Shown: in pieces, positions 10,117-20,156 of the stretch
How positions within the stretch are numbered: position 1 is the stretch's first letter
Layout: each line of letters opens with the position of its first letter
DNA from: Burkholderia pyrrocinia
GTDB taxonomy: Bacteria > Pseudomonadota > Gammaproteobacteria > Burkholderiales > Burkholderiaceae
NCBI RefSeq assembly: GCF_018417535.1
Contig: NZ_CP070977.1
Location: 124,001 to 188,000 of the forward strand
DNA length: 64,000 nucleotides
Reading direction: 5' to 3'
The notes under the pieces: model-generated
The model's database searches: none
Seen by the model: only the letters and a program-made list of their open reading frames with translations
What the model was told of the DNA's origin: nothing
Position numbers and translations under genes: made by a program

Positions 10117-11325
10117 TCAGCGCGCGGCGGCCCACAGCCACACGCCGCAGGCAACCGCGACCGCGCCGTAGACGGCATAGACGGGCACCCTGAAGCGCGT
10201 GAAGCACAGCGTCGCGAACGCGCCCGTCAGCCAGTAGATCGGGTCGGCCGGCTCGCGATGCAGGATCTTCACGACGGCGACGACGAGAAAGCCCGTCGTC
10301 GCCGCGCGCAGCAGGCGCATCCCGTGCTCGAAACGCGAATGGCGCTTGAGCCGGGACAGGTGATTCTGCGCAAACACGACGAGAAAACCTGACGGAATGA
10401 ACAGCGCGGCCGTTGCGAGCAGCGCGCCGACCCAGCCGTCGGTCAGGTAGCCGAGAAACGGCACGACGTTCAGCAGCGGCCCCGGTGCCACGGGCGACAG
10501 CGCGAACGCCAGCGTGAAGTCATGATCGGAGATACCCGTCGCCGGCGAGACGAACAGCGTCTTGAGCACCGGCAGCGCGGAAAAGCCGCCGCCGAACAGC
10601 GTCATGCCGGCGCCGGCGAGGCGCGGCCACAGCAGTTGCGCCTGGTAATCACCGGGCAGCGGCACCGCGAACAGCGCGACGAGCACGCCGAGCAGCACGA
10701 GCAGGTTGCGGTCGCGTCTCGACAGCGTGAAATCGACCGCGTCGCTTTGCAGCGGCCCCGTCAGCCAACCCGCTGCAAACGCAGCGAAAAGAATCCCGAC
10801 GAAAGCGATCGGACTATGCGCGAAAGAAAGCAGAATCGTCGACAGCGCGGCGATCGCCTGTTCGAGCCGCGTGCGCGCGAGCGAGCGCAACTGCTTGACC
10901 CACGTGACGCCGATCAGCGCGGCGAGCACCATCCCGAAGTGATTGATCAGCACCGGCGCGGCAAGCGAGCGCACGAACGGCGTGCGATAGAAGATCGCGA
11001 ACAGCGTCATCAGGATGGAGAACGGCAGCACGCTCGCGATGCCGGCGACCCATGCGCCGGCACGGCCGTGCAGCGTCTGGCCGACTTGCACCGCGACATT
11101 GCACCCGACGGGGCCCGGCACGAGCCAGGCAAGCGCGACGAGATCGCCGAATACGTGCGGTTCGATGCGCTGCAGCCGTTCGACGTAGTGGCGTTCGAGC
11201 TGCGCCATCATCGAAAGCCCGCCCCACGAGATCGCCGAAATGCCGGCGACGACCTTGAACAAGGCCCATAGGGATGCCTGTGCCTCTTCGACACGAGCGG
11301 ACGCTTCGACTTCGACGGTTGTCAT
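10117..11325 (-). CDS. chrA: ChrA-type chromate transporter, 402 aa
   Basis: Polytopic membrane protein of the CHR superfamily, long-chain type with two homologous halves. The first half shows the diagnostic segment ALAWLVPGPVGCNVAVQVG followed by GAWVAG; the second repeats it as FALSPVAPGPLLNVVPFLG. ChrA exports chromate, probably in exchange for or driven by proton motive force. About ten hydrophobic stretches are visible and the length is normal for long-chain ChrA. I start at the ATG giving MTTVEVEASARVEE, since the 20 residues upstream in the same frame are unlike the family. There is no chrB regulator nearby. Some CHR proteins have no chromate phenotype, so the substrate is inferred. 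Confidence 0.88.
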   Translation of the reverse strand: MTTVEVEASARVEEAQASLWALFKVVAGISAISWGGLSMMAQLERHYVERLQRIEPHVFGDLVALAWLVPGPVGCNVAVQVGQTLHGRAGAWVAGIASVLPFSILMTLFAIFYRTPFVRSLAAPVLINHFGMVLAALIGVTWVKQLRSLARTRLEQAIAALSTILLSFAHSPIAFVGILFAAFAAGWLTGPLQSDAVDFTLSRRDRNLLVLLGVLVALFAVPLPGDYQAQLLWPRLAGAGMTLFGGGFSALPVLKTLFVSPATGISDHDFTLAFALSPVAPGPLLNVVPFLGYLTDGWVGALLATAALFIPSGFLVVFAQNHLSRLKRHSRFEHGMRLLRAATTGFLVVAVVKILHREPADPIYWLTGAFATLCFTRFRVPVYAVYGAVAVACGVWLWAAAR

Positions 11326-11528
11326 GATTGTAGTGTTGGCGCAGGGCCAGATCTCGCACGTGTAGACGTACAGGCGGCCCGCCAATACGTTGGCCCTCCC
11401 AATTGTCCGCCTCGCACCGTGACGCTGCCATGCGCGAAAACGCTAGTTAATGAACCAAACAATCGGATCGGAAAACGAAATAATTGCGGCGGCGCGCAAC
11501 GCATGTCACGACCGTAGACGCGGTGCGC

Positions 11529-13868
11529 TCAGGCGCCGCTGCTGCCCGTCGCGCGGTGCGCGATGACGTTCGGATGATCGCCGCGCACGCCGAAGCGCGC
11601 GATCAGCGCGGGAATCGCGTCGGCCGGCACCGGGCGCGAGAACAGGTAGCCCTGCGCCTCGATCTCGCCGAGCGCGGACAGCCACGTGATCTGCTCTTCC
11701 GTTTCCGTGCCTTCGACGACGACGGTCAGGCCGAGCGAGCGCGCGAGATGCACGATCGACGACACCATCACGCACACGCTGCGATCGTTCGGGATCGCCT
11801 GCACGAACGAGCGGTCGACCTTCAGCGTGTCGACGGAGAAGCGGTGCAGGTACGACAGCGACGAATAGCCGGTACCGAAATCGTCGAGGGCGATCCGGAT
11901 GCCGAGCTTCTTCAGCGCGACGATCTTCTCGGACACGAGTTCCGGATATTCCATCATCGCGGTTTCGGTGATCTCGAGCTCGAGCCGGTTCGCGTCGATG
12001 CCGGTGTCCTGCAGCGTGCGCGAGATCGTCTCGATCAGGTCGCCGCGCCAGAACTGCACGGGAGAGATGTTGACCGCGAGCGTCAGCGTGTCGTGGCCCT
12101 CGTCGCGCCAGCGCGCGATCTGCTCGCATGCGGTGCGGATCACGAAGTCGCCGATCGGCACGATCAGGCCCGTCGATTCGGCGATCGAAATGAATTCGTT
12201 CGCGGAGATGATCCCGTGCTCGGGGTGATCCCAGCGCGCAAGCGCCTCGAAGCCGGTGATGGTGCGGTGCGTGAGGTCGATCTTCGGCTGGTACGCGAGG
12301 AACAACTGCCCCTCGGCAAGCGCGACGCGCAATTGCTGTTCCCAGCGCATCAGGTGGTCGGCACGGTGCGACAGGTGCGGCGCATAGAACTGGTAGCAGT
12401 TCTTGCCGGCGTCCTTCGCGCTGTACATCGCGAGGTCGGCCTTCTTCAGCAGGTCGATCTCGCTTTCGTTCGCGACGGTGTGCAGCGCGATGCCGATGCT
12501 CGCATGCAGCACGAACGAACTGCCGCGCACGTCGAACGGTTCGCCGAACATCCGGATGATCGCTTCCGCGAGCCGCACCGCGCGCCGCTCGACGTCGTCG
12601 CCTTTCATCACGACGACGAACTCGTCGCCGCCGATGCGCGCGAGCGAGCCTTCGTCGCCGACCGCTTCGGACAGGCGCGACGCGGTCATCTGCAGCACGA
12701 TGTCGCCGGCGTTGTGGCCGAGCGTGTCGTTGACGGTCTTGAAGTTGTCGAGATCGATGAACAGCAGGCCAAGCCGCGACAGGCTCGCCGGCATCGCCAC
12801 GTCATTGCGCAGCCCGCGCAGCGTCGCATAGCGGTTCGCGAGACCGGTGAGCAGGTCGAATTCCGCGAGCTGCGTCATCTCGCGCTCGCGACCGAGCAGC
12901 TTGCCGATCAGGCCCGTCGCGACGCCGAAGAACGCGAGCATCGCGAGCGTGATGAAGCTCGTCATCAACAGGTAGACGTTGCGCGTGTGGTAGTAGTCCG
13001 CGAATTCCTCGGATTGCGACAGCCCGACCATCACCGCGAGCGGATAGCCGTCGAGGTGGCGGTACGACACGATGCGCGTCACGCCGTCGATCGGGTCGAT
13101 GATCGTGCCCGTCACGCGCTCGGCGATCGGGTAGACGCCCGATGCCGAAAACGCGCCCGGCGCGTTGCTGAGCGAACCCGTGCGCCGTGCGAGCACCGCG
13201 CCCGTGTCGGACACGACCGCGATCACGCCTTCCTTGCCGATCGCCGCGTTGTTGTAGAAGTCGTTCGTGAAGTAGCTCGGGTCTTCCGACACGACGACGA
13301 TGCCCGCGAAGCTGCCGTTCGGGTTGTTCAGGCGCCGCGTCATCTGCAGCGTCCAGTGGCTCGACACGCGGCCGAGCACGGGCTTGCTGATATAGAGGCG
13401 GTCGTCGTTGTGCGCGAGGTGGACCTTGAAGTGCTCGCGATCGGACAGGTTGATCGGCTGCGGATGAAGCTCGGCCGTGTTCGCGAACAGGATGCCCTTC
13501 GCGTTGACGAGCGATACCTGGATCAGCGTATCGCTCGGCACGACGCCTTTCTCGACGGCGCTCGCGAGATTGAAGCGCCCGGGCGACTTCTCGAACTCGA
13601 ACTTGACGAAGCGGGTGATCTGGTCGACCTGGTGGATCGCCTTGACCGTATGCTGCTCGAGCGCGGAGGACAGGATCGCCGCGGACGCCGCCGCTTCCTT
13701 GTATGCGCTGTCTTTCTCGACCGACAGCCGCGCGACGATCACGGCCCACAGCAGCGCAAGCGCCAGCATCCCGAGCAGCGGGATGGCGAACAGCGCACGC
13801 CGGCGCGATTTGCGCGGCGCGCGTAGCGGCCGGGTCGGCGGCGTAGGGTTGGACCGGGCGGAGCTCAT
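11529..13868 (-). CDS. Membrane-anchored GGDEF-EAL cyclic-di-GMP protein, 779 aa
   Basis: Domain order: basic N-terminus, one membrane helix (ALFAIPLLGMLALALLWAV), a roughly 260-residue periplasmic sensor resembling a double-Cache domain, a second helix (VYLLMTSFITLAMLAFFGV), then GGDEF and EAL. The diguanylate cyclase motif is intact (IGGDEF at residues 412-417), and the EAL domain keeps EALARW (Glu541), NISPVQFW, ELEITETAMM and the DDFGTGYSSLSYL loop, so both activities may be functional. It would make or break c-di-GMP in response to an extracellular ligand. Three in-frame starts exist (TTG at 13964, ATG at 13901, ATG at 13868); none has a strong ribosome-binding site, and I chose the one closest to the first helix. 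No neighbour hints at the ligand. Confidence 0.92.
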   Translation of the reverse strand: MSSARSNPTPPTRPLRAPRKSRRRALFAIPLLGMLALALLWAVIVARLSVEKDSAYKEAAASAAILSSALEQHTVKAIHQVDQITRFVKFEFEKSPGRFNLASAVEKGVVPSDTLIQVSLVNAKGILFANTAELHPQPINLSDREHFKVHLAHNDDRLYISKPVLGRVSSHWTLQMTRRLNNPNGSFAGIVVVSEDPSYFTNDFYNNAAIGKEGVIAVVSDTGAVLARRTGSLSNAPGAFSASGVYPIAERVTGTIIDPIDGVTRIVSYRHLDGYPLAVMVGLSQSEEFADYYHTRNVYLLMTSFITLAMLAFFGVATGLIGKLLGREREMTQLAEFDLLTGLANRYATLRGLRNDVAMPASLSRLGLLFIDLDNFKTVNDTLGHNAGDIVLQMTASRLSEAVGDEGSLARIGGDEFVVVMKGDDVERRAVRLAEAIIRMFGEPFDVRGSSFVLHASIGIALHTVANESEIDLLKKADLAMYSAKDAGKNCYQFYAPHLSHRADHLMRWEQQLRVALAEGQLFLAYQPKIDLTHRTITGFEALARWDHPEHGIISANEFISIAESTGLIVPIGDFVIRTACEQIARWRDEGHDTLTLAVNISPVQFWRGDLIETISRTLQDTGIDANRLELEITETAMMEYPELVSEKIVALKKLGIRIALDDFGTGYSSLSYLHRFSVDTLKVDRSFVQAIPNDRSVCVMVSSIVHLARSLGLTVVVEGTETEEQITWLSALGEIEAQGYLFSRPVPADAIPALIARFGVRGDHPNVIAHRATGSSGA

Positions 13869-14087
13869 CGAAGAGGGTGGCGTCCTGCTCGCGTGCACCA
13901 TCCGTCTGGATGGCCTGCTAGGGTTAGGGTCGCCCCGGCGTCTGTTCGTTCGCGGGATGCGCAACCATGGACAGACCTCGGAAACAACGGATTAGGCCCG
14001 ATATTACTGGCTGGAACGTTTTTGCGATAGTTGGGCGAACCGTAGGGGGGCGCCGGACGGGCCGGCGCCATCGCACATCGCGAAATG

Positions 14088-14969
14088 TCAGACAGGGGAC
14101 CGGAACGTGCCGTCGACGACCGTGACGGCGTGGCCGCCGATCCACGTCGTGCCGTCTTCGTCGTAGCTGACGAAGATGCGGCCGTCGCGGCCGATCGCCG
14201 TACCCTGGCGGGCCGTGTACGACCTGCCGGGGCGGCGCTCCTGCCGCGTCAGCAGCCCGGCCAGCGCCGCGTTCGCGCTGCCGGTGACGGGATCTTCGCC
14301 GACGCCGAAGTTGCCGCCCGTCATCAGGCAGCGGATTTCGAACGTCGCGGGGCCGCCTTCGGCGTGCGGCGCGTAGACCGCGAGGCCGTCCGTGCCGTAG
14401 CGGTGCGTGATCGCCTCCAGCGCGGCCGGATCGGGCGACAGGCCGATGCAGGCGTCGGCCGACGTCAGCCGCACGACGAGCCACGGCGCGCCGTTGTCGA
14501 CCGCGCACGGCTCGGCATCCGTATCGATCGCATCGCTGCGCAGCGCGGCAGCCAGCGCCGCGTAGTCGGAACGGTCGAGCGGCGTGACGCGTGCCGGCGG
14601 CGCGGCGAACGCCCAGCCGTCGGCCTGCTCGCGCAGCGCAACCCGGCCGACCCCGCATTGCTGGATCAGCCGGCCCGGCGTACGCGGCCGCGCGCCGCTT
14701 TCGAGGAACGCGTGCGCGGTGCCGAGCGTCGGGTGGCCGGCGAACGGCAGTTCGCCGGCCGGCGTGAAGATCCGCACGCGGTAGTCGGCTTCCGGGTCGG
14801 TCGGCGTGCAGACGAATGTCGTTTCCGACAGGTTCGTCCAGCGGGCGATCGCGAGCATGGCGTCGTCGCCGAGCGAATCGGCGTCGAACACCACGGCGAG
14901 CGGGTTGCCCTTGAACGGCACCGACGTGAATACGTCGACCTGCTTGAAGCGGACGAGACGACCTGGCAT
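14088..14969 (-). CDS. PhzF-family isomerase-like protein, 293 aa
   Basis: Cytoplasmic protein of the PhzF/DapF-like epimerase fold (two pseudo-symmetric beta-barrels). Characteristic segments are VDVFTSVPFKGNPLAVV at the start, NLSETTFV with the catalytic-type Glu, IFTPAGELPFAGHPTLGTAH, and in the second half MTGGNFGVGEDPVTGSAN. PhzF itself isomerises a phenazine precursor, but most homologues (YddE-like) have unknown substrates, and no phenazine genes are present here. It is the last gene of a leftward run, starting 13 bp after the RidA gene, so it likely acts in the same pathway. The family is certain; the reaction is not. Confidence 0.9.
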   Translation of the reverse strand: MPGRLVRFKQVDVFTSVPFKGNPLAVVFDADSLGDDAMLAIARWTNLSETTFVCTPTDPEADYRVRIFTPAGELPFAGHPTLGTAHAFLESGARPRTPGRLIQQCGVGRVALREQADGWAFAAPPARVTPLDRSDYAALAAALRSDAIDTDAEPCAVDNGAPWLVVRLTSADACIGLSPDPAALEAITHRYGTDGLAVYAPHAEGGPATFEIRCLMTGGNFGVGEDPVTGSANAALAGLLTRQERRPGRSYTARQGTAIGRDGRIFVSYDEDGTTWIGGHAVTVVDGTFRSPV

Positions 14970-14982
14970 CGCGATCCGCCTG

Positions 14983-15441
14983 TTACGCGACTTCGGCGAT
15001 CAGTTCGATCTCGACGCACGCGCCGAGCGGGATCTGCGCGACGCCGAAGGCCGAGCGTGCATGCTTGCCCGCATCGCCGAATACTTCGGCGATCAGCTCC
15101 GACGCGCCGTTCGTCACGATGTGCTGTTCGGTGAAGTCGAGCGTCGAGTTGACGAGGCTCATCAGCTTGACGATGCGCGTGACCTTGTTCAGGTCGCCGG
15201 TGTGCGCGTGCAGCGTCGCGAGCAGGTCGATCGCGATCGAGCGTGCGGCCGCCTTGCCGTCTTCCGTCTGCAGATCCGCGCCGAGCTTGCCGGCCCAGAC
15301 CTTGCCGTCCTTCTTCGCGATGTGGCCCGACAGGTAGACCGTGTTGCCGCTTTGCGCGCTCATCACGTAGGCGGCGGCCGGTGCGCCGGCGGTCGGGAGC
15401 TCGATGCCGAGCGACTTCAGTTTGTCGTAGACGTTAGCCAT
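14983..15441 (-). CDS. RidA/YjgF-family protein, 152 aa
   Basis: Trimeric RidA proteins hydrolyse reactive enamine/imine intermediates released by PLP enzymes, or act as specific deaminases. Visible marks are the N-terminal LGIELPTAG, VYLSGHI and the C-terminal GVAQIPLGACVEIELIAEV; the segment ahead of it (FGDAGKHARSAFG) has the RSA pattern with the conserved Arg of the active site. The 152-residue length is longer than classic RidA (about 128), because of an insert typical of the subgroup with a GKVWAGKLG segment. It lies 45 bp after an aminotransferase and 13 bp before phzF in one direction, which supports a role in cleaning up or processing that enzyme's product. Confidence 0.92.
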   Translation of the reverse strand: MANVYDKLKSLGIELPTAGAPAAAYVMSAQSGNTVYLSGHIAKKDGKVWAGKLGADLQTEDGKAAARSIAIDLLATLHAHTGDLNKVTRIVKLMSLVNSTLDFTEQHIVTNGASELIAEVFGDAGKHARSAFGVAQIPLGACVEIELIAEVA

Positions 15442-15486
15442 GCGTTCGAATCCTCGTAGAGAGTCGTGACAGGAAAAGGGGGGCGA

Positions 15487-16668
15487 TCAGAGGCGCTCGC
15501 GCAGCAGCTTGCCGAGGCGAGCCACGCCTTCCTCGATCTTCTCGGGCGGCACCGTGACGAACGACAGGCGCAGCGTATTCTGCTGCGCGTTGTCCGCGAA
15601 GAACGGCGCGCCCGGCACGAAGGCGACGTGGTTGTCGACGGCCGCGGCGAGCAGCTTCATGCTGTCGATCTGCGCGGGCAGGTTCACCCAGATGAACATC
15701 CCGCCTTCCGGTCGGTTCCACGTGACGCCTTCCGGCATGTGGCGCGCGAGCGCGCCGAGCATCGCGTCGCATTGCGCGCTGTACAGCTCGCGGATCGTCG
15801 GGATGTGCTCGTCGAGGAAGCCGTCCTTGATCACTTCGTGCGCGATGCGCTGCGTGAGCGTCGGCGTGTGCAGGTCGGTGGCCTGCTTGGCCTGCACGAG
15901 CTTGAAGTGGAGTTCCTCGGGGGCAATGATGTAGCCGATCCGCAGGCCCGGTGCGAGCACCTTCGAGAACGTGCCGAGGTGCACGACGTGGTCGGGCGCC
16001 ATCGACAGCATCGTCGGCAGCGGCTCGCCGCGGTAGTTCAGCGCGCCGTACGGATCGTCTTCCAGCACCGGGAACGGGCTCGACTGCGCGAACGCGGCGA
16101 GCGCGCGGCGGCGCTCGACGGGCAGGCGGCGGCCGGTCGGGTTCTGGAAGTTCGGCTGCGCGTACAGGAGGCGCGCGCCTTGCGTGAGTTCGGGCGTGAG
16201 GCCTGCCGGCAGCAGGCCCTGCTCGTCGGTCGGCACCTGCACGTAGCGCGGCTCGTACAGCGAGAACGACTGCAGCGCGCCGAGGTAGGTCGGCGTTTCG
16301 ACGAGGATCGGGCTGCCCGGATCGATAAGCGCCTTGCCGAGCAGGTCGAGCGCCTGCTGCGAGCCGGTCGTGATCAGCACCTGCGACACGCGCACGCTGT
16401 AACGCTCGGCGATCCACTCGCGCAGCGGCAGGTAGCCTTCGGTCGCGCTGTACTGGAGCGCGGCAGCCGGCGCGTCGCGCAGCACGCGGTCGGCGGCGGC
16501 GCGCATGCGCTCGGCCGGGAACGTCGCGGGGGCGGGCAGGCCGCCGGCGAACGAGATGACCTCGGGGCGTTCCGTGACCTTCAGGATCTCGCGGATCGCA
16601 GAGCTCGTGAGCTTGCGGGCGCGTTCGGAAAGCTGCCAGTGCGGCGGATGCAGGTCGCTCGGATTCAT
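15487..16668 (-). CDS. PLP-dependent aminotransferase (class I/II), 393 aa
   Basis: Fold-type I aminotransferase of the MocR-related group lacking a DNA-binding domain (similar to 2-aminoadipate or aromatic/branched-chain aminotransferases such as LysN). The PLP lysine is Lys236 in HLGTFSKVLAPGLRIGY; the cofactor-binding Asp/Tyr are in VLEDDPYGALNY, and NPTGR is the substrate-carboxylate loop. The C-terminus has the PEGGMFIWVNLP segment with the conserved Arg nearby (TLRLSF). It is in a leftward run with RidA, PhzF and an EamA transporter, and a MocR regulator is divergent, so its amino-acid substrate is probably also the inducer. The substrate cannot be read from sequence. Confidence 0.93.
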   Translation of the reverse strand: MNPSDLHPPHWQLSERARKLTSSAIREILKVTERPEVISFAGGLPAPATFPAERMRAAADRVLRDAPAAALQYSATEGYLPLREWIAERYSVRVSQVLITTGSQQALDLLGKALIDPGSPILVETPTYLGALQSFSLYEPRYVQVPTDEQGLLPAGLTPELTQGARLLYAQPNFQNPTGRRLPVERRRALAAFAQSSPFPVLEDDPYGALNYRGEPLPTMLSMAPDHVVHLGTFSKVLAPGLRIGYIIAPEELHFKLVQAKQATDLHTPTLTQRIAHEVIKDGFLDEHIPTIRELYSAQCDAMLGALARHMPEGVTWNRPEGGMFIWVNLPAQIDSMKLLAAAVDNHVAFVPGAPFFADNAQQNTLRLSFVTVPPEKIEEGVARLGKLLRERL

Positions 16669-16820
16669 AGTCTCCTCGTTCGGATATCGTGGTCAGTCAA
16701 GAAAGGTCGTTCGGGCGGATCGCTTCGACGCTGCCGGGTGGGCATGCGCGAGCGCGGTCGAGCCTTCGCGGCCGGGTGGGCAAAACCGATCAGGCAAAAC
16801 GATCATTATGGCGCACCTGT

Positions 16821-17729
16821 TCAGCCGGCGCGAGCCGGTTGCGCGGCGGTGGCGACCGCCGAGCGGCGCCCGAGCACCACGGTGGCGATCACGGCGGCCG
16901 CGAACAGCCACGTCGACGGCGTGACCGTCTCGCCGAACAGCAGCGCGGAAAATGCAATCGTGAAGAAAATCTGCAGCAGTTGCACCTGGCCGACGCGCGC
17001 GATGCCGCCCATCGCGAGCCCTGCATACCATGCGAAAAAGCCGATGAATTGCGAAAAGAGGGTCACGTAGCCGAATGCGAGCCACGTGCGCAGCGCGAGC
17101 GGGCCCGGATGCGCGGCATGCTGCATCCACGCGAGCCAGCCGACCGGCAGCACGAGGAACGGCGCGGACACGACGAGCGCCCAGCAGATCACCTGCCAGC
17201 CGCCGATCTGGCGCGCGAGGCGCGCGCCTTCCGCATAACCGAGCGCGCCGATGCCGACCGCGACGAGCATCAGCGCGTCGCCGGCCTGCACGGTGCCGCC
17301 GCCGTCGCGCAGCGCGAACGCGATCACGAGCGCGCTGCCGGCCAGCGCGCTGGCCCAGAACGCCTTCGATGGCCGCTCGTGCGACAGCCATGCCGCGTAC
17401 AGCGCGACGAACAGCGGCTGCAGCCCGTTGACGACCGCGCCGTGGGACGCCGGCACGGATTTCATCGCCCATGCGGAAAACACCGGATACGCGATGATCA
17501 CGCCGGCCGACGTGATCGCGAGGCTTTTCAGTTGCGCGCGGGTCGGCAGCGGCTCGCGGCGCCACCACAGCAGCAGGCCGGCCGGCACGGCGGCGGCGAG
17601 CGCGCGGCCGAGCCCGTTGAGCAGCGGATTGAGTTCGGACACGACGATACGCGTCATCGGCAGCGTCAGGCTGAAGATCATCACACCGATCAGGCCGAGC
17701 AGCATGCCCCGGGTTTCGCGCGAATTCAT
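16821..17729 (-). CDS. EamA/DMT-family transporter, 302 aa
   Basis: Inner-membrane protein with ten predicted helices arranged as two EamA repeats: the first from MLLGLIGVMIFSLTLPMTRI, the second from GDALMLVAVGIGALGYAEG to WLFAAAVIATVVLG. EamA proteins usually export amino acids or related metabolites (YdcZ/RhtA-like). I start at MNSRETRGM because it precedes the first helix directly; upstream residues in the same open frame belong to the end of the VOC gene region. It lies between the VOC gene (46 bp upstream) and the aminotransferase (152 bp downstream), which suggests that it moves the substrate or product of that pathway. Confidence 0.88.
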   Translation of the reverse strand: MNSRETRGMLLGLIGVMIFSLTLPMTRIVVSELNPLLNGLGRALAAAVPAGLLLWWRREPLPTRAQLKSLAITSAGVIIAYPVFSAWAMKSVPASHGAVVNGLQPLFVALYAAWLSHERPSKAFWASALAGSALVIAFALRDGGGTVQAGDALMLVAVGIGALGYAEGARLARQIGGWQVICWALVVSAPFLVLPVGWLAWMQHAAHPGPLALRTWLAFGYVTLFSQFIGFFAWYAGLAMGGIARVGQVQLLQIFFTIAFSALLFGETVTPSTWLFAAAVIATVVLGRRSAVATAAQPARAG

Positions 17730-17775
17730 GTCGTGGGTGTCTCCGTATTGCAGGGTGGTTGTAATCGACGGGTGT

Positions 17776-18468
17776 TCAGCGCAGCGTGCGCGCGCCCTGC
17801 GGCGTGTCGAATTCGGCGACCAGCGCGGGCGGGCCGTCGCCGGTTTCGAGTTCGAGCAGATGTGCGGCGCCGAGCCAGTCGAGTTGCTCGCGGACCGCGT
17901 CCGCACGCGGGTGGCTGCCCTTGAGCGCTTTCAGCGCGACGCCGTCTTGCGGCAGCGATTCGGCCGGGTGGTGCGGGCTGTCCCACTGGATCAGCGACGG
18001 CACGAGGCCGTCTCCCGAACCCTGCCACGCGGGGAACGCGCCGTCGTCGGGCACCGTGAGGCCCCAGGTCAGGTCGCCGCGCCGCATCGCGACGACGGGC
18101 GGGATGCGGGCCGGGTACTGGCTTTGCCACAGCGCGAGCTGGCGCGGGCGGTCGACGCGCGCGACCCAGTGCGCGAGAAACGGGCCCTGCGCGAGCCGGG
18201 CGTGCATCGCCGGATCGTCGAGCGCGAACAGCCGCGCGCGCGGCGGCGCTGCGCCGTCGTCCGGGGCGGGGGCGTCGGGGTCGATCGCGATCACTTCGAG
18301 GTAGAGCCCGCCCCATGCGCCGAACAGCGCATTGTGGGTCCGCATCAGCGGGGGGCGGCCGCCGCCGGCCGGTTCGATGCCGAGCGCGTCGGCGACATGG
18401 CGCACGCCGTCGTCGAGCGTGCGTGCGGCGATCACGAGATGGTCGAGTGTCAGGGAGCGGGCTGGCAT
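17776..18468 (-). CDS. VOC/glyoxalase-like domain protein, 230 aa
   Basis: The N-terminal LDHLVIAARTLDDGV and GGLYLEVIAIDP segments mark a vicinal-oxygen-chelate (glyoxalase-like) domain, with His and Glu as potential metal ligands; a C-terminal part of about 100 residues follows, as in the two-part glyoxalase_3 type. Such proteins are often annotated as hypothetical, and their reactions are varied (isomerisation, dioxygenation, lysis). I start at MPARSLTLDH because the domain begins there. It is the first gene of the leftward run and its start codon faces the MocR gene across a 230-bp regulatory gap. Confidence 0.78.
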   Translation of the reverse strand: MPARSLTLDHLVIAARTLDDGVRHVADALGIEPAGGGRPPLMRTHNALFGAWGGLYLEVIAIDPDAPAPDDGAAPPRARLFALDDPAMHARLAQGPFLAHWVARVDRPRQLALWQSQYPARIPPVVAMRRGDLTWGLTVPDDGAFPAWQGSGDGLVPSLIQWDSPHHPAESLPQDGVALKALKGSHPRADAVREQLDWLGAAHLLELETGDGPPALVAEFDTPQGARTLR

Positions 18469-18621
18469 GAACGTCGGTCGGGAAGCGAAAGTGTCATGGT
18501 AGGCGGGCGATGCGCCGGGCGGTTGCTGGACCGGCCGGCGCATGGGCCGCGGACGAGGCCGGCCGGCGCGGCTCCCGGTGCGGCGGGGCCGGAACGGCGG
18601 CCGCACGGTCGCCATTGCGGT

Positions 18622-18687
18622 CAACTGTAATCGTCGGCACCGGCACAGTAACGGTACAATCGGCGCGATAGCCTTCGGTACAGTTGG
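18622..18687. promoter_or_regulatory. Repeat-rich operator candidate for the MocR regulator
   Basis: CAACTGTA (18622-18629) is mirrored by TACAGTTG (18680-18687); in addition GGTACA occurs as a direct repeat at 18653-18658 and 18677-18682, 24 bp apart, and GGCACAGT at 18642-18649 resembles both. MocR regulators such as PdxR and GabR bind direct repeats with added inverted elements near their own promoters. One GGTACAAT copy may also be the -10 element of the MocR gene. Confidence 0.6.
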
Positions 18688-18698
18688 AGCTGCCGCCC

Positions 18699-20156
18699 AT
18701 GTCCACCGTTCCACTCGCCCAGATTCCCGCGCCGCACGATACGGCCACGCTCACGCTCGTCGACCAGCTTGTCCAGTGGGCCCGGCGGCGCATCGACGAA
18801 CGCGTGTTCCGTCCCGGCATGCGGATGCCGTCGATCCGCAAGCTCGCGCTCGACAAGAGCGTGTCGCGCTTTACCGTCGTCGAGGCATACGAGCGCCTAG
18901 TCGCGCAGGGTTACCTCGACTCGCGGCGCGGCTCGGGCTTCTACGTGCGCGAACGCACGGCCGGCCCGCAGCCGGCCGACAACGTGGCGCGCGTGTCCGA
19001 AGCCGCGCCCGTGCACAACACGATCGACGTCGTCTGGCTGCTGCGCAACATGCTGCACACGGTCAGCCCGGAAAAGGGGCCCGGTCTCGGCTACCTGCCG
19101 GGCCGCTGGCTCGACGGCGAGCTGATCACCGGCGCGCTGCGCGCGCTCGGGCGCCAGTCCGGCGCGCAGATGCTCGGCTTCGGCACCGCGCAGGGCTTCC
19201 TGCCGCTGCGCCAGCAACTGCAGACGCGCCTGGCCGAGGTCGAGATCGGCGCGACGCCCGACCAGCTCGTGCTCGTGTCGGGGATCACGCAGGCGATCGA
19301 CCTGATCTCGCGGATCTACGTGCGGCCCGGCGATGCGGTGATCGTCGGCGATCCCGCGTGGTTCCAGATGTTCGGCCGCTTCGCGTCGCAGGGCGCGCAG
19401 CTCGTCGGGATGCCGTACACGCCGGACGGCCCCGATCTCGATGCGCTCGAGACGCTCGTGCAGATGTGGCGGCCGAAGATGCTCGTGATCAACTCGGTGC
19501 TGCAGAACCCGACCGGCACGTCGCTGTCGGCTGCGCAGGCGTTCCGGATCCTGAAGCTCGCGGAGGCGTACGACTTCCTCGTCGTCGAGGACGACGTGTA
19601 CGGCGACCTGTGTCCGCCGAGCTATCCGGCCACGCGCCTCGCGAGCCTCGACCAGTTGAAGCGCGTGATCTACCTCGGCAGCTATTCGAAGACGCTCGCG
19701 GCGAACCTGCGGGTCGGCTACGTCGCGTGCGCGCCGGAGATCGCGAAGGCGGTCACCGACCAGAAGATGCTGGTCGGGATGACGACGCCCGAGCTCAACG
19801 AACGCGTGCTTTACAAGATCCTGACCGAAGGGCATTACCGGCGCCATGTCGAGCGGCTGCGCGCGCGGCTCGACGGCGTGCGCGACAAGACCGCGCGGAT
19901 GCTCGAACGCACGGGGCTGGGGCTCTTCACGATGCCGGCGGCCGGGATGTTCCTGTGGGCCGACACGGGCGTCGATTCGGACGCGCTCGCGGCGGTCGCG
20001 CACGAGGCCGGCTTTCTGCTGACGCCGGGCAGCCTGTTTTCGCCGCAGCAATCGCCGTCGACGTGGATGCGCTTCAACGTCGCGAACTGCGGCGATCCGG
20101 CGCTGCCGGGGTTGCTGGCAGGCTATATCGACTCGGCCGTGCGGCGCGCGTCGTGA
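18699..20156 (+). CDS. MocR-family (GntR + aminotransferase) regulator, 485 aa
   Basis: A winged HTH of the GntR type (residues about 18-85: MPSIRKLALDKSVSRFTVVE, then GYLDSRRGSGFYV) is joined by a linker to a full fold-type I aminotransferase domain. The PLP lysine is retained, Lys331 in IYLGSYSKTLAANLRVGY, together with NPTG (270-273) and VVEDDVYGDL. MocR regulators sense amino acids or amines through PLP chemistry. The TTG upstream at 18684 is rejected in favour of the ATG at 18699. It is divergent from the VOC-EamA-aminotransferase-RidA-PhzF run and is probably its controller, with operator-like repeats in the gap. The ligand is unknown. Confidence 0.93.
   Translation: MSTVPLAQIPAPHDTATLTLVDQLVQWARRRIDERVFRPGMRMPSIRKLALDKSVSRFTVVEAYERLVAQGYLDSRRGSGFYVRERTAGPQPADNVARVSEAAPVHNTIDVVWLLRNMLHTVSPEKGPGLGYLPGRWLDGELITGALRALGRQSGAQMLGFGTAQGFLPLRQQLQTRLAEVEIGATPDQLVLVSGITQAIDLISRIYVRPGDAVIVGDPAWFQMFGRFASQGAQLVGMPYTPDGPDLDALETLVQMWRPKMLVINSVLQNPTGTSLSAAQAFRILKLAEAYDFLVVEDDVYGDLCPPSYPATRLASLDQLKRVIYLGSYSKTLAANLRVGYVACAPEIAKAVTDQKMLVGMTTPELNERVLYKILTEGHYRRHVERLRARLDGVRDKTARMLERTGLGLFTMPAAGMFLWADTGVDSDALAAVAHEAGFLLTPGSLFSPQQSPSTWMRFNVANCGDPALPGLLAGYIDSAVRRAS

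Follow-up and report, generated by a model that had tools for sequence, protein, structure and literature searches.

A cluster of five genes in Burkholderia pyrrocinia, encoding a VOC protein, an EamA-type exporter, a pyridoxal 5'-phosphate (PLP)-dependent aminotransferase (AT), a Rid-family protein and a PhzF-family protein, lies divergent from the gene of a MocR-type regulator. We analysed it within a window of 64,000 nucleotides, positions 124,001 to 188,000 of NZ_CP070977.1, which is contig C1 (G000:C1:124001-188000) of the three contigs of an 8.54 Mb genome. Our findings point, with a probability of about 0.6, to a MocR-controlled regulon of amino-acid export and conversion with two promoters, one on the VOC side of the cluster and one before a LysE gene on contig C2, in which the signal would be sensed as a PLP adduct. 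We propose a regulon rather than a five-gene pathway because the second operator site, outside the window, precedes this LysE gene. An earlier note, made from the sequence of the window alone, had described the leftward order VOC, EamA, AT, Rid, PhzF and the divergent MocR; open reading frame (ORF) coordinates and family matches agreed with it throughout, including the gaps of 46 bp (VOC-EamA), 152 bp (EamA-AT), 45 bp (AT-Rid) and 13 bp (Rid-PhzF). Its proposal of control by MocR was borne out at the level of sequence, by a conserved predicted operator that is common to off-site targets.

The predicted operator and its targets

A direct-repeat predicted operator upstream of both the regulator's own gene and its target genes, a trait of the MocR subfamily, is present in the 230 bp between VOC and mocR (Table 1). 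On the VOC strand, a -10 hexamer follows the proximal box after 12 bp in 78/78 Burkholderia-type sequences (TACAGT in 33, TACATT in 45). These are 77 loci and the window; L052, L074 and L116, which have no intact MocR match, and L166, with a MocR score below 300 bits, were excluded. Since the sequences are related by descent, they do not amount to 78 independent events. Among outgroup loci, 11/19 have the operator, with at least 16 of 20 consensus positions matching, and all 11 carried TANNNT at the same spacing. The tandem repeat spans about -25 to -43 of the VOC-side promoter, and no -35 consensus was seen there. GabR of Bacillus subtilis is an activator of gabTD and an autorepressor. By analogy with GabR, the rigid spacing between operator and -10 element and the missing -35 consensus suggest that MocR activates the VOC-side promoter. 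A scan for sigma-70 consensus promoters found 0, with 0.4 expected by chance, which neither helps nor harms this interpretation.

When the genome was scanned for the operator, zero mismatches were found at two places only: the MocR-VOC interval, and a site on C2 that precedes a LysE/RhtB-type exporter gene (G000:C2:2125418). No place had one or two mismatches. A first scan, performed before the LysE site was known, had already picked out both places, one without a mismatch and the other with a single one; its controls gave 5 matches. When the LysE of one outgroup MocR cluster was compared with the own genome, this LysE ranked first among 18 matches. A LysE search (E up to 1e-60) gave a match in 19/19 genomes of the same genus and in 0/12 from other families, and operator and -10 element stood before the LysE orthologues in 21/21 cases examined (the 19 same-genus genomes, G143 and G182). 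Around LysE, no match to MocR was detected, either within about 1.5 kb in the 19 genomes of the same genus or across a 10-kb stretch of the own genome. In one locus (L174, 3829-4386), an IS3-type transposase gene, recognised by eye, lies about 0.5 kb upstream of the putatively regulated LysE, and the LysE-side operator is intact. Elsewhere on C2 (L176, G000:C2:3081500-3091500), a second MocR, 41 % identical to that of the cluster, appears by eye to be divergent from another EamA-type gene.

The operator and -10 element were then treated as one rigid module (the operator, then 13 free bases from the end of the pattern, then TANNNT) and searched for in 60 genomes of the family. This gave 49 matches in 32/60 genomes, never more than two per genome; the reversed pattern and a spacing one base shorter both gave 0 matches. 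All 49 places were classified, from 46 fetched stretches, the window, L148 and L174: 26 are MocR clusters, 18 stand before unlinked LysE/RhtB genes, 5 before an orphan AT, and none was unexplained. The 26 MocR clusters hold EamA (23), VOC (21), Rid (21), AT (20), PhzF (15) and LysE (7), some of the stretches ending early. A looser, order-wide scan returned 19 matches in 16/300 genomes, of which 15 lie at MocR genes and the other 4 at LysE, and the four new clusters that it revealed (G312, G341, G314, G285) again hold LysE.

Table 1. Genes and predicted regulatory elements of the MocR-linked cluster, in coordinates of the window.
Feature	Position	Strand	Remarks
PhzF-family isomerase/epimerase	14088-14969	-	293 aa; ORF and PF02567
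Rid-family protein (PF14588)	14983-15441	-	152 aa; ORF and Pfam
PLP aminotransferase (AT), class I/II, LysN / 2-aminoadipate multi-substrate type	15487-16668	-	393 aa
Conserved -10-like CATAAT before AT	16805-16810	-	just behind EamA; no MocR operator, no clear -35
EamA (DMT superfamily) exporter, PF00892	16821-17729	-	302 aa
VOC / Glyoxalase_3 (PF13468) protein	17776-18468, ATG at 18468	-	230 aa
-10 element TACAGT of VOC-side promoter	18624-18629	-	exactly 12 bp from proximal box
Predicted MocR operator core, tandem direct repeat GGCACAGT-aac-GGTACAAT	18642-18660 (boxes 18642-18649, 18653-18660)	+	11-bp period
Possible -10 TACAAT of mocR promoter	18655-18660	+	overlapped by distal box (from sequence)
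Third box GGTACAGT	18677-18684	+	24 bp further on; in most Burkholderia-type sequences inspected
MocR regulator, GntR winged helix and class I aminotransferase-like domain	18699-20156	+	

Conservation and regrouping of the genes

Of 280 AT relatives, the best 80 were compared for gene order, and the recurrence of the arrangement is not a matter of chance. After AT comes Rid in 79/80 loci, the exception being L074, whose contig ends 378 bp past AT; PhzF was found in 78 (in L090 as a partial match only), VOC in 75 and EamA in 37. The full order VOC-EamA-AT-Rid-PhzF is present in 34/80 loci, and EamA is missing between VOC and AT in 41/80 (L097 also being without PhzF). The remaining 5 comprise two loci without VOC, one without both VOC and EamA, L074 with AT alone, and L116, whose contig starts about EamA. 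In loci without EamA, 76-219 bp separate the matches to VOC and AT. The earlier note's expectation of a conserved neighbourhood thus stands, with Rid accompanying AT almost throughout. The L074 contig, assigned to Frateuria defendens, carries an AT 85 % identical to that of Burkholderia and no matches to MocR, VOC or EamA in the 6 kb upstream, and we consider it either a transfer or a mis-binned contig. One further relative (L035, from G028) has an in-frame TAA in AT. In Paraburkholderia xenovorans LB400 (L106), MocR, VOC, AT, Rid and PhzF occur together with the predicted operator.

The flanking genes for HtpG, a GGDEF/EAL protein and a chromate transporter are as conserved as the cluster. 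The GGDEF/EAL dCache protein (11529-13964, minus strand) was found in 78/80 loci and the chromate transporter (10117-11385, minus strand) in 76/80, and no operator was seen at either. For this reason gene order within Burkholderia/Paraburkholderia, taken alone, is weak evidence, and the regrouped outgroup clusters and the common operator carry more weight. The equal conservation of these flanks is what mere conserved synteny of genes without a functional link would predict; however, the same operator stands at unlinked LysE and AT genes and the same families regroup around MocR in other families, which makes such an explanation extremely improbable.

The outgroup loci consisted of 20 regions from homologue-search hits and four from the order-wide scan. 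Beside MocR in 23 of them we found LysE (13), EamA (11), AT (6), Rid (5), PhzF (1) and VOC (0). Outside the nearest genera, the clusters around the orthologous MocR vary in composition: threonine dehydratase (PRK06110), LysE, EamA, Rid and AT in G202; DUF2917, LysE, EamA, Rid and AT in G031; VOC, an AlaX-like gene, LysE, EamA, Rid, AT and GST in G182; and LysE with EamA only, or LysE alone, in several others. The AlaX-like alanyl-tRNA editing gene stands between VOC and LysE in three loci of one genus (L280, L282, L148). In seven loci of other genera (L152, L278, L291, L292, L293, L327, L328), the gene for a DUF2917-like protein comes first among those recognised past the MocR promoter. The own-genome matches to a threonine dehydratase of the G202 type are 29-33 % identical and none lies at a zero-mismatch operator, and this enzyme was rejected as a member of the own-genome regulon. 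The cluster of L285 includes an FMN-binding protein (PF04299), a family with the same split-barrel fold as PdxH. In five small genomes from two genera, an amino-acid racemase is present in 5/5 and a PhzF match in 2; two of the five also encode a threonine-aldolase-like enzyme and, behind MocR, an L-serine ammonia-lyase that passes its model cut-off. The predicted operator lies directly before AT in all five, which argues that AT itself belongs to the regulon. Taken over these lineages, the most widely recurring part is export (LysE, EamA); AT and Rid occur in several lineages, and VOC and PhzF are additions.

The earlier note had treated the five genes as a single transcription unit, and this was not borne out. 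A -10-like motif, [CG]ATA[AC]T, occurs upstream of AT in 79/80 loci, usually within a GcGC context. Random 180-base windows contain it in 3 % of cases, but as these are mostly coding, this background may underestimate that of intergenic DNA. The Rid-PhzF gap has a median of 13 bp in 31 Burkholderia loci and of 183 bp in 47 other loci (those from L069 onward, including a few records titled Burkholderia sp.). Judging from the sequence, AT-Rid-PhzF probably has a basal promoter of its own besides; MocR would probably drive VOC(-EamA), and AT-Rid-PhzF perhaps only partly. The note had stated that independent promoters in the gaps together with responses to different signals would overturn its idea of one pathway; of these, the promoter part was found, as a possible promoter at the -10-like element before AT.

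In that idea, a single MocR promoter would serve a dedicated pathway, catabolic or biosynthetic, with VOC, AT, Rid and PhzF handling one compound in turn and EamA transporting the product. It would account for five co-directional genes with short gaps in Burkholderia, for their frequent presence in the 26 family MocR clusters, and for the aligned active-site residues inspected (the Rid Arg, the PhzF Glu and the AT Lys). It is nevertheless unlikely: VOC, EamA and PhzF are each missing in some relatives that keep AT and Rid, the Rid-PhzF gap widens outside Burkholderia and a second -10-like element precedes AT, outgroup MocR loci differ and several consist of exporters alone, and an off-site exporter has the same operator.

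The encoded proteins, the proposed mechanism and a possible ligand

The regulator contains both domains of the MocR subfamily (PF00392, 49.9 bits, cut-off 27; PF00155, 121.1 bits, cut-off 19.7). Its Lys331 (GSYSK) aligns with Lys236 of AT (GTFSK) and is the presumed PLP lysine. An identity with PdxR was rejected (NF052282 of NCBIfam, 238.5 bits against a cut-off of 320), as was one with GabR (NF052285, 103 against 600). MocR resembles GabR in architecture, in a divergent target operon with an aminotransferase, and in a direct-repeat operator overlapping the promoter; it differs in the score, in a cluster without gabT or gabD, and in having exporters among its targets. The nearest relatives of AT in the PDB are the 2-aminoadipate aminotransferase 2egy and multi-substrate or KAT II-like enzymes (1wst and 3aov among this type). 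Residues 15-390 of AT (protein P0005) align to 2egy with 367.6 bits (E 8e-109), so that AT relates to LysN- and PH0207-type aminotransferases over nearly its full length; 2-aminoadipate activity is a prediction, and the cluster, unlike those enzymes, is not in a context of lysine biosynthesis. AT is 98-99 % identical to that of several Burkholderia species, which we take to belong to the Burkholderia cepacia complex; the host is probably closely related to them.

The earlier note's identification of a Rid protein holds. The domain is PF14588, which we take to mean that the protein is probably Rid1, and the Arg of its HARSA motif aligns with HARAA of PA0814 and 3d01, presumably the catalytic Arg of active Rid proteins (RidA, Rid1-3). 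The cut-off of TIGR00004 was not reached, and imine hydrolysis is predicted. PhzF matches PF02567 (PhzC-PhzF) along its full length, and its Glu49 aligns with the Glu of the NLSE motif, as in the PhzF / YddE / YHI9 family. Its neighbours are Rid and the GGDEF/EAL protein, with no phz gene beside it (the genome itself was not searched for phz), and phenazine synthesis was rejected on these neighbours. Anti-phage defence was likewise rejected, as PADLOC assigned 0 families to the six proteins, and an Rfam scan gave 0 matches at the gathering cut-off, i.e. no known RNA elements.

The mechanism that we propose begins with MocR, carrying PLP on Lys331, which would react with an amino acid that accumulates, or with a reactive product of it, to give an adduct. 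Bound at the tandem repeat in the -35 region, MocR would then activate both the VOC-EamA-AT-Rid-PhzF side and the LysE/RhtB gene on C2. Going by their families, the exporters would reduce the amino-acid pool, the multi-substrate AT would convert this amino acid or the keto acid derived from it, Rid would hydrolyse imine or enamine by-products that otherwise poison PLP enzymes, and VOC and PhzF would be lineage-specific helpers. The likeliest role is an overflow or clean-up response to an accumulating amino acid, and in this respect the amino-acid theme of the earlier note is retained. As a first guess, the ligand may be a serine/threonine-type beta-hydroxy amino acid, a hint taken from the lineage-specific AlaX-like, Ser/Thr dehydratase, aldolase-like and amino-acid racemase genes.

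A more specific possibility is that MocR senses serine/threonine-derived PLP stress, either attack by 2-aminoacrylate or loading with serine, and commands a programme of efflux, transamination and imine quenching on two replicons. In some lineages, this dedicated 2-aminoacrylate-stress regulon would have gained Ser/Thr dehydratases or an AlaX-like protein that proofreads mischarged tRNA. A passage of one study describes enrichment of the MocR-type PtsJ with a pyridoxal (PLP) probe under 2-aminoacrylate stress (PMC12172467), so that direct sensing of this stress by a MocR protein is conceivable. We found no description of such a regulon in the open-licence PMC literature, and we hold this possibility to be a rather unlikely one.

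Several observations weigh against the proposed export-and-conversion regulon. From the sequence, MocR may activate or repress, and with a conserved -10-like element before AT, AT-Rid-PhzF may be transcribed apart and need not follow MocR. The pattern of the own-genome scan was drawn once the LysE site was known; at three mismatches that scan gave 23 matches, against 30 in controls at up to three, and the first scan was noisy, with 2 matches against 5 in controls. The order-wide scan is noisy as well, with 6 control matches, and in nine genomes a looser pattern matched 17 times, compared with 10 times in controls, 8 of the 17 (in G202, G080 and G107; 6 of these 8 inspected) being at no recognised target and probably due to chance. 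The module is absent from 28/60 family genomes, 20 of these 28 being of 2.8 Mb or less. At 4/18 LysE sites, a MocR paralogue (38-39 % identical) lies 0.7-3.7 kb downstream and could regulate there. Seven of the 23 outgroup MocR loci hold none of the target families, among them L156, where the MocR orthologue nevertheless has the operator and -10 module. The NCBIfam scores of EamA and LysE are under cut-off, and substrates are not readable from these families. As to the ligand, the AlaX-like protein passes Pfam tRNA_SAD but stays below the AlaXM cut-off (177.9 against 300); the aldolase-like protein passes PF01212 and two aminotransferase models, as a PLP enzyme would, and reaches no NCBIfam cut-off; and each of the serine/threonine-type hints is limited to one genus or one genome.

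Relation to known MocR regulons

MocR regulons joining PhzF-like proteins and DMT transporters were predicted in 2016 (Suvorova and Rodionov, PMC5320631), and passages of that paper place RidA in five regulogs and name LysE, aminotransferases and threonine dehydratase as predicted targets too. The present regulon shares with those passages the MocR regulator, DMT and LysE transporters, aminotransferases, PhzF-like COG384, RidA and direct-repeat operators; it differs from the regulons described there in that no B6 gene stands at the sites found. Sections 9-11 and passages of PMC5320631 describe neither the module with its fixed 12-bp distance between operator and -10 element nor LysE and AT as off-site targets; the regulon itself may stand in the supplementary tables of that paper. 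In passages of Niehaus 2015 (PMC4433059), Rid genes of the Rid/YjgF family cluster with PLP enzymes. We found no experimental account of the cluster in the open-licence PMC literature, including the topics of AlaX/RidA and PhzF racemases. The earlier note's remark that no named pathway has exactly this gene set therefore stands within that literature, although MocR regulons of similar content had already been predicted. The regulon is thus of an already predicted kind, and its fresh part is the well-defined promoter module.

This likeness raises the question of whether the regulon serves vitamin B6 (PLP) homeostasis, with MocR sensing PLP, as in the PdxQ regulons, and exporters and PhzF acting on B6 vitamers. 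In content the match is close: the PdxQ regulons, in the passages of PMC5320631 that treat them, hold DMT/LysE transporters, PLP aminotransferases, a GloA-family lyase and PhzF-like COG384, and also pdxO/pdxO2/pdxH. The EamA and the off-site LysE of the present regulon agree with these transporters, and the protein of L285 has the fold of PdxH. What stands first at the 49 module matches, however, is a MocR cluster, LysE or AT. Control of PLP-metabolic genes was not seen at the two zero-mismatch own-genome sites, which precede VOC-EamA-AT-Rid-PhzF and LysE and no B6 gene (weaker sites and some cluster genes lie outside this check), and the PdxR model falls short of its cut-off. A B6 regulon was rejected as first choice on these targets, and we regard it as distinctly unlikely.

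Self-protection against PLP-directed non-protein amino acids of the vinylglycine type, made by neighbours and removed by the exporters and AT/Rid, would be in line with the vinylglycine (FVG) cluster of Pseudomonas fluorescens WH6, for which a passage of PMC8067088 reports LysE exporters, a MocR regulator and an aminotransferase together. We consider this quite improbable, as the near-universal conservation in Burkholderia suggests a common ligand and no gene pointing to such a compound was recognised in the inspected clusters.

With the export-and-conversion regulon as the preferred reading, a guess on a gene cluster becomes a defined regulon whose promoter spacing is rigid, whose module occurs no more than twice in any of the 60 genomes searched, and whose targets are regrouped by lineage. 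The ligand of an uncharacterised MocR group thereby becomes testable, and a Rid protein would be tied to particular exporters and an aminotransferase.

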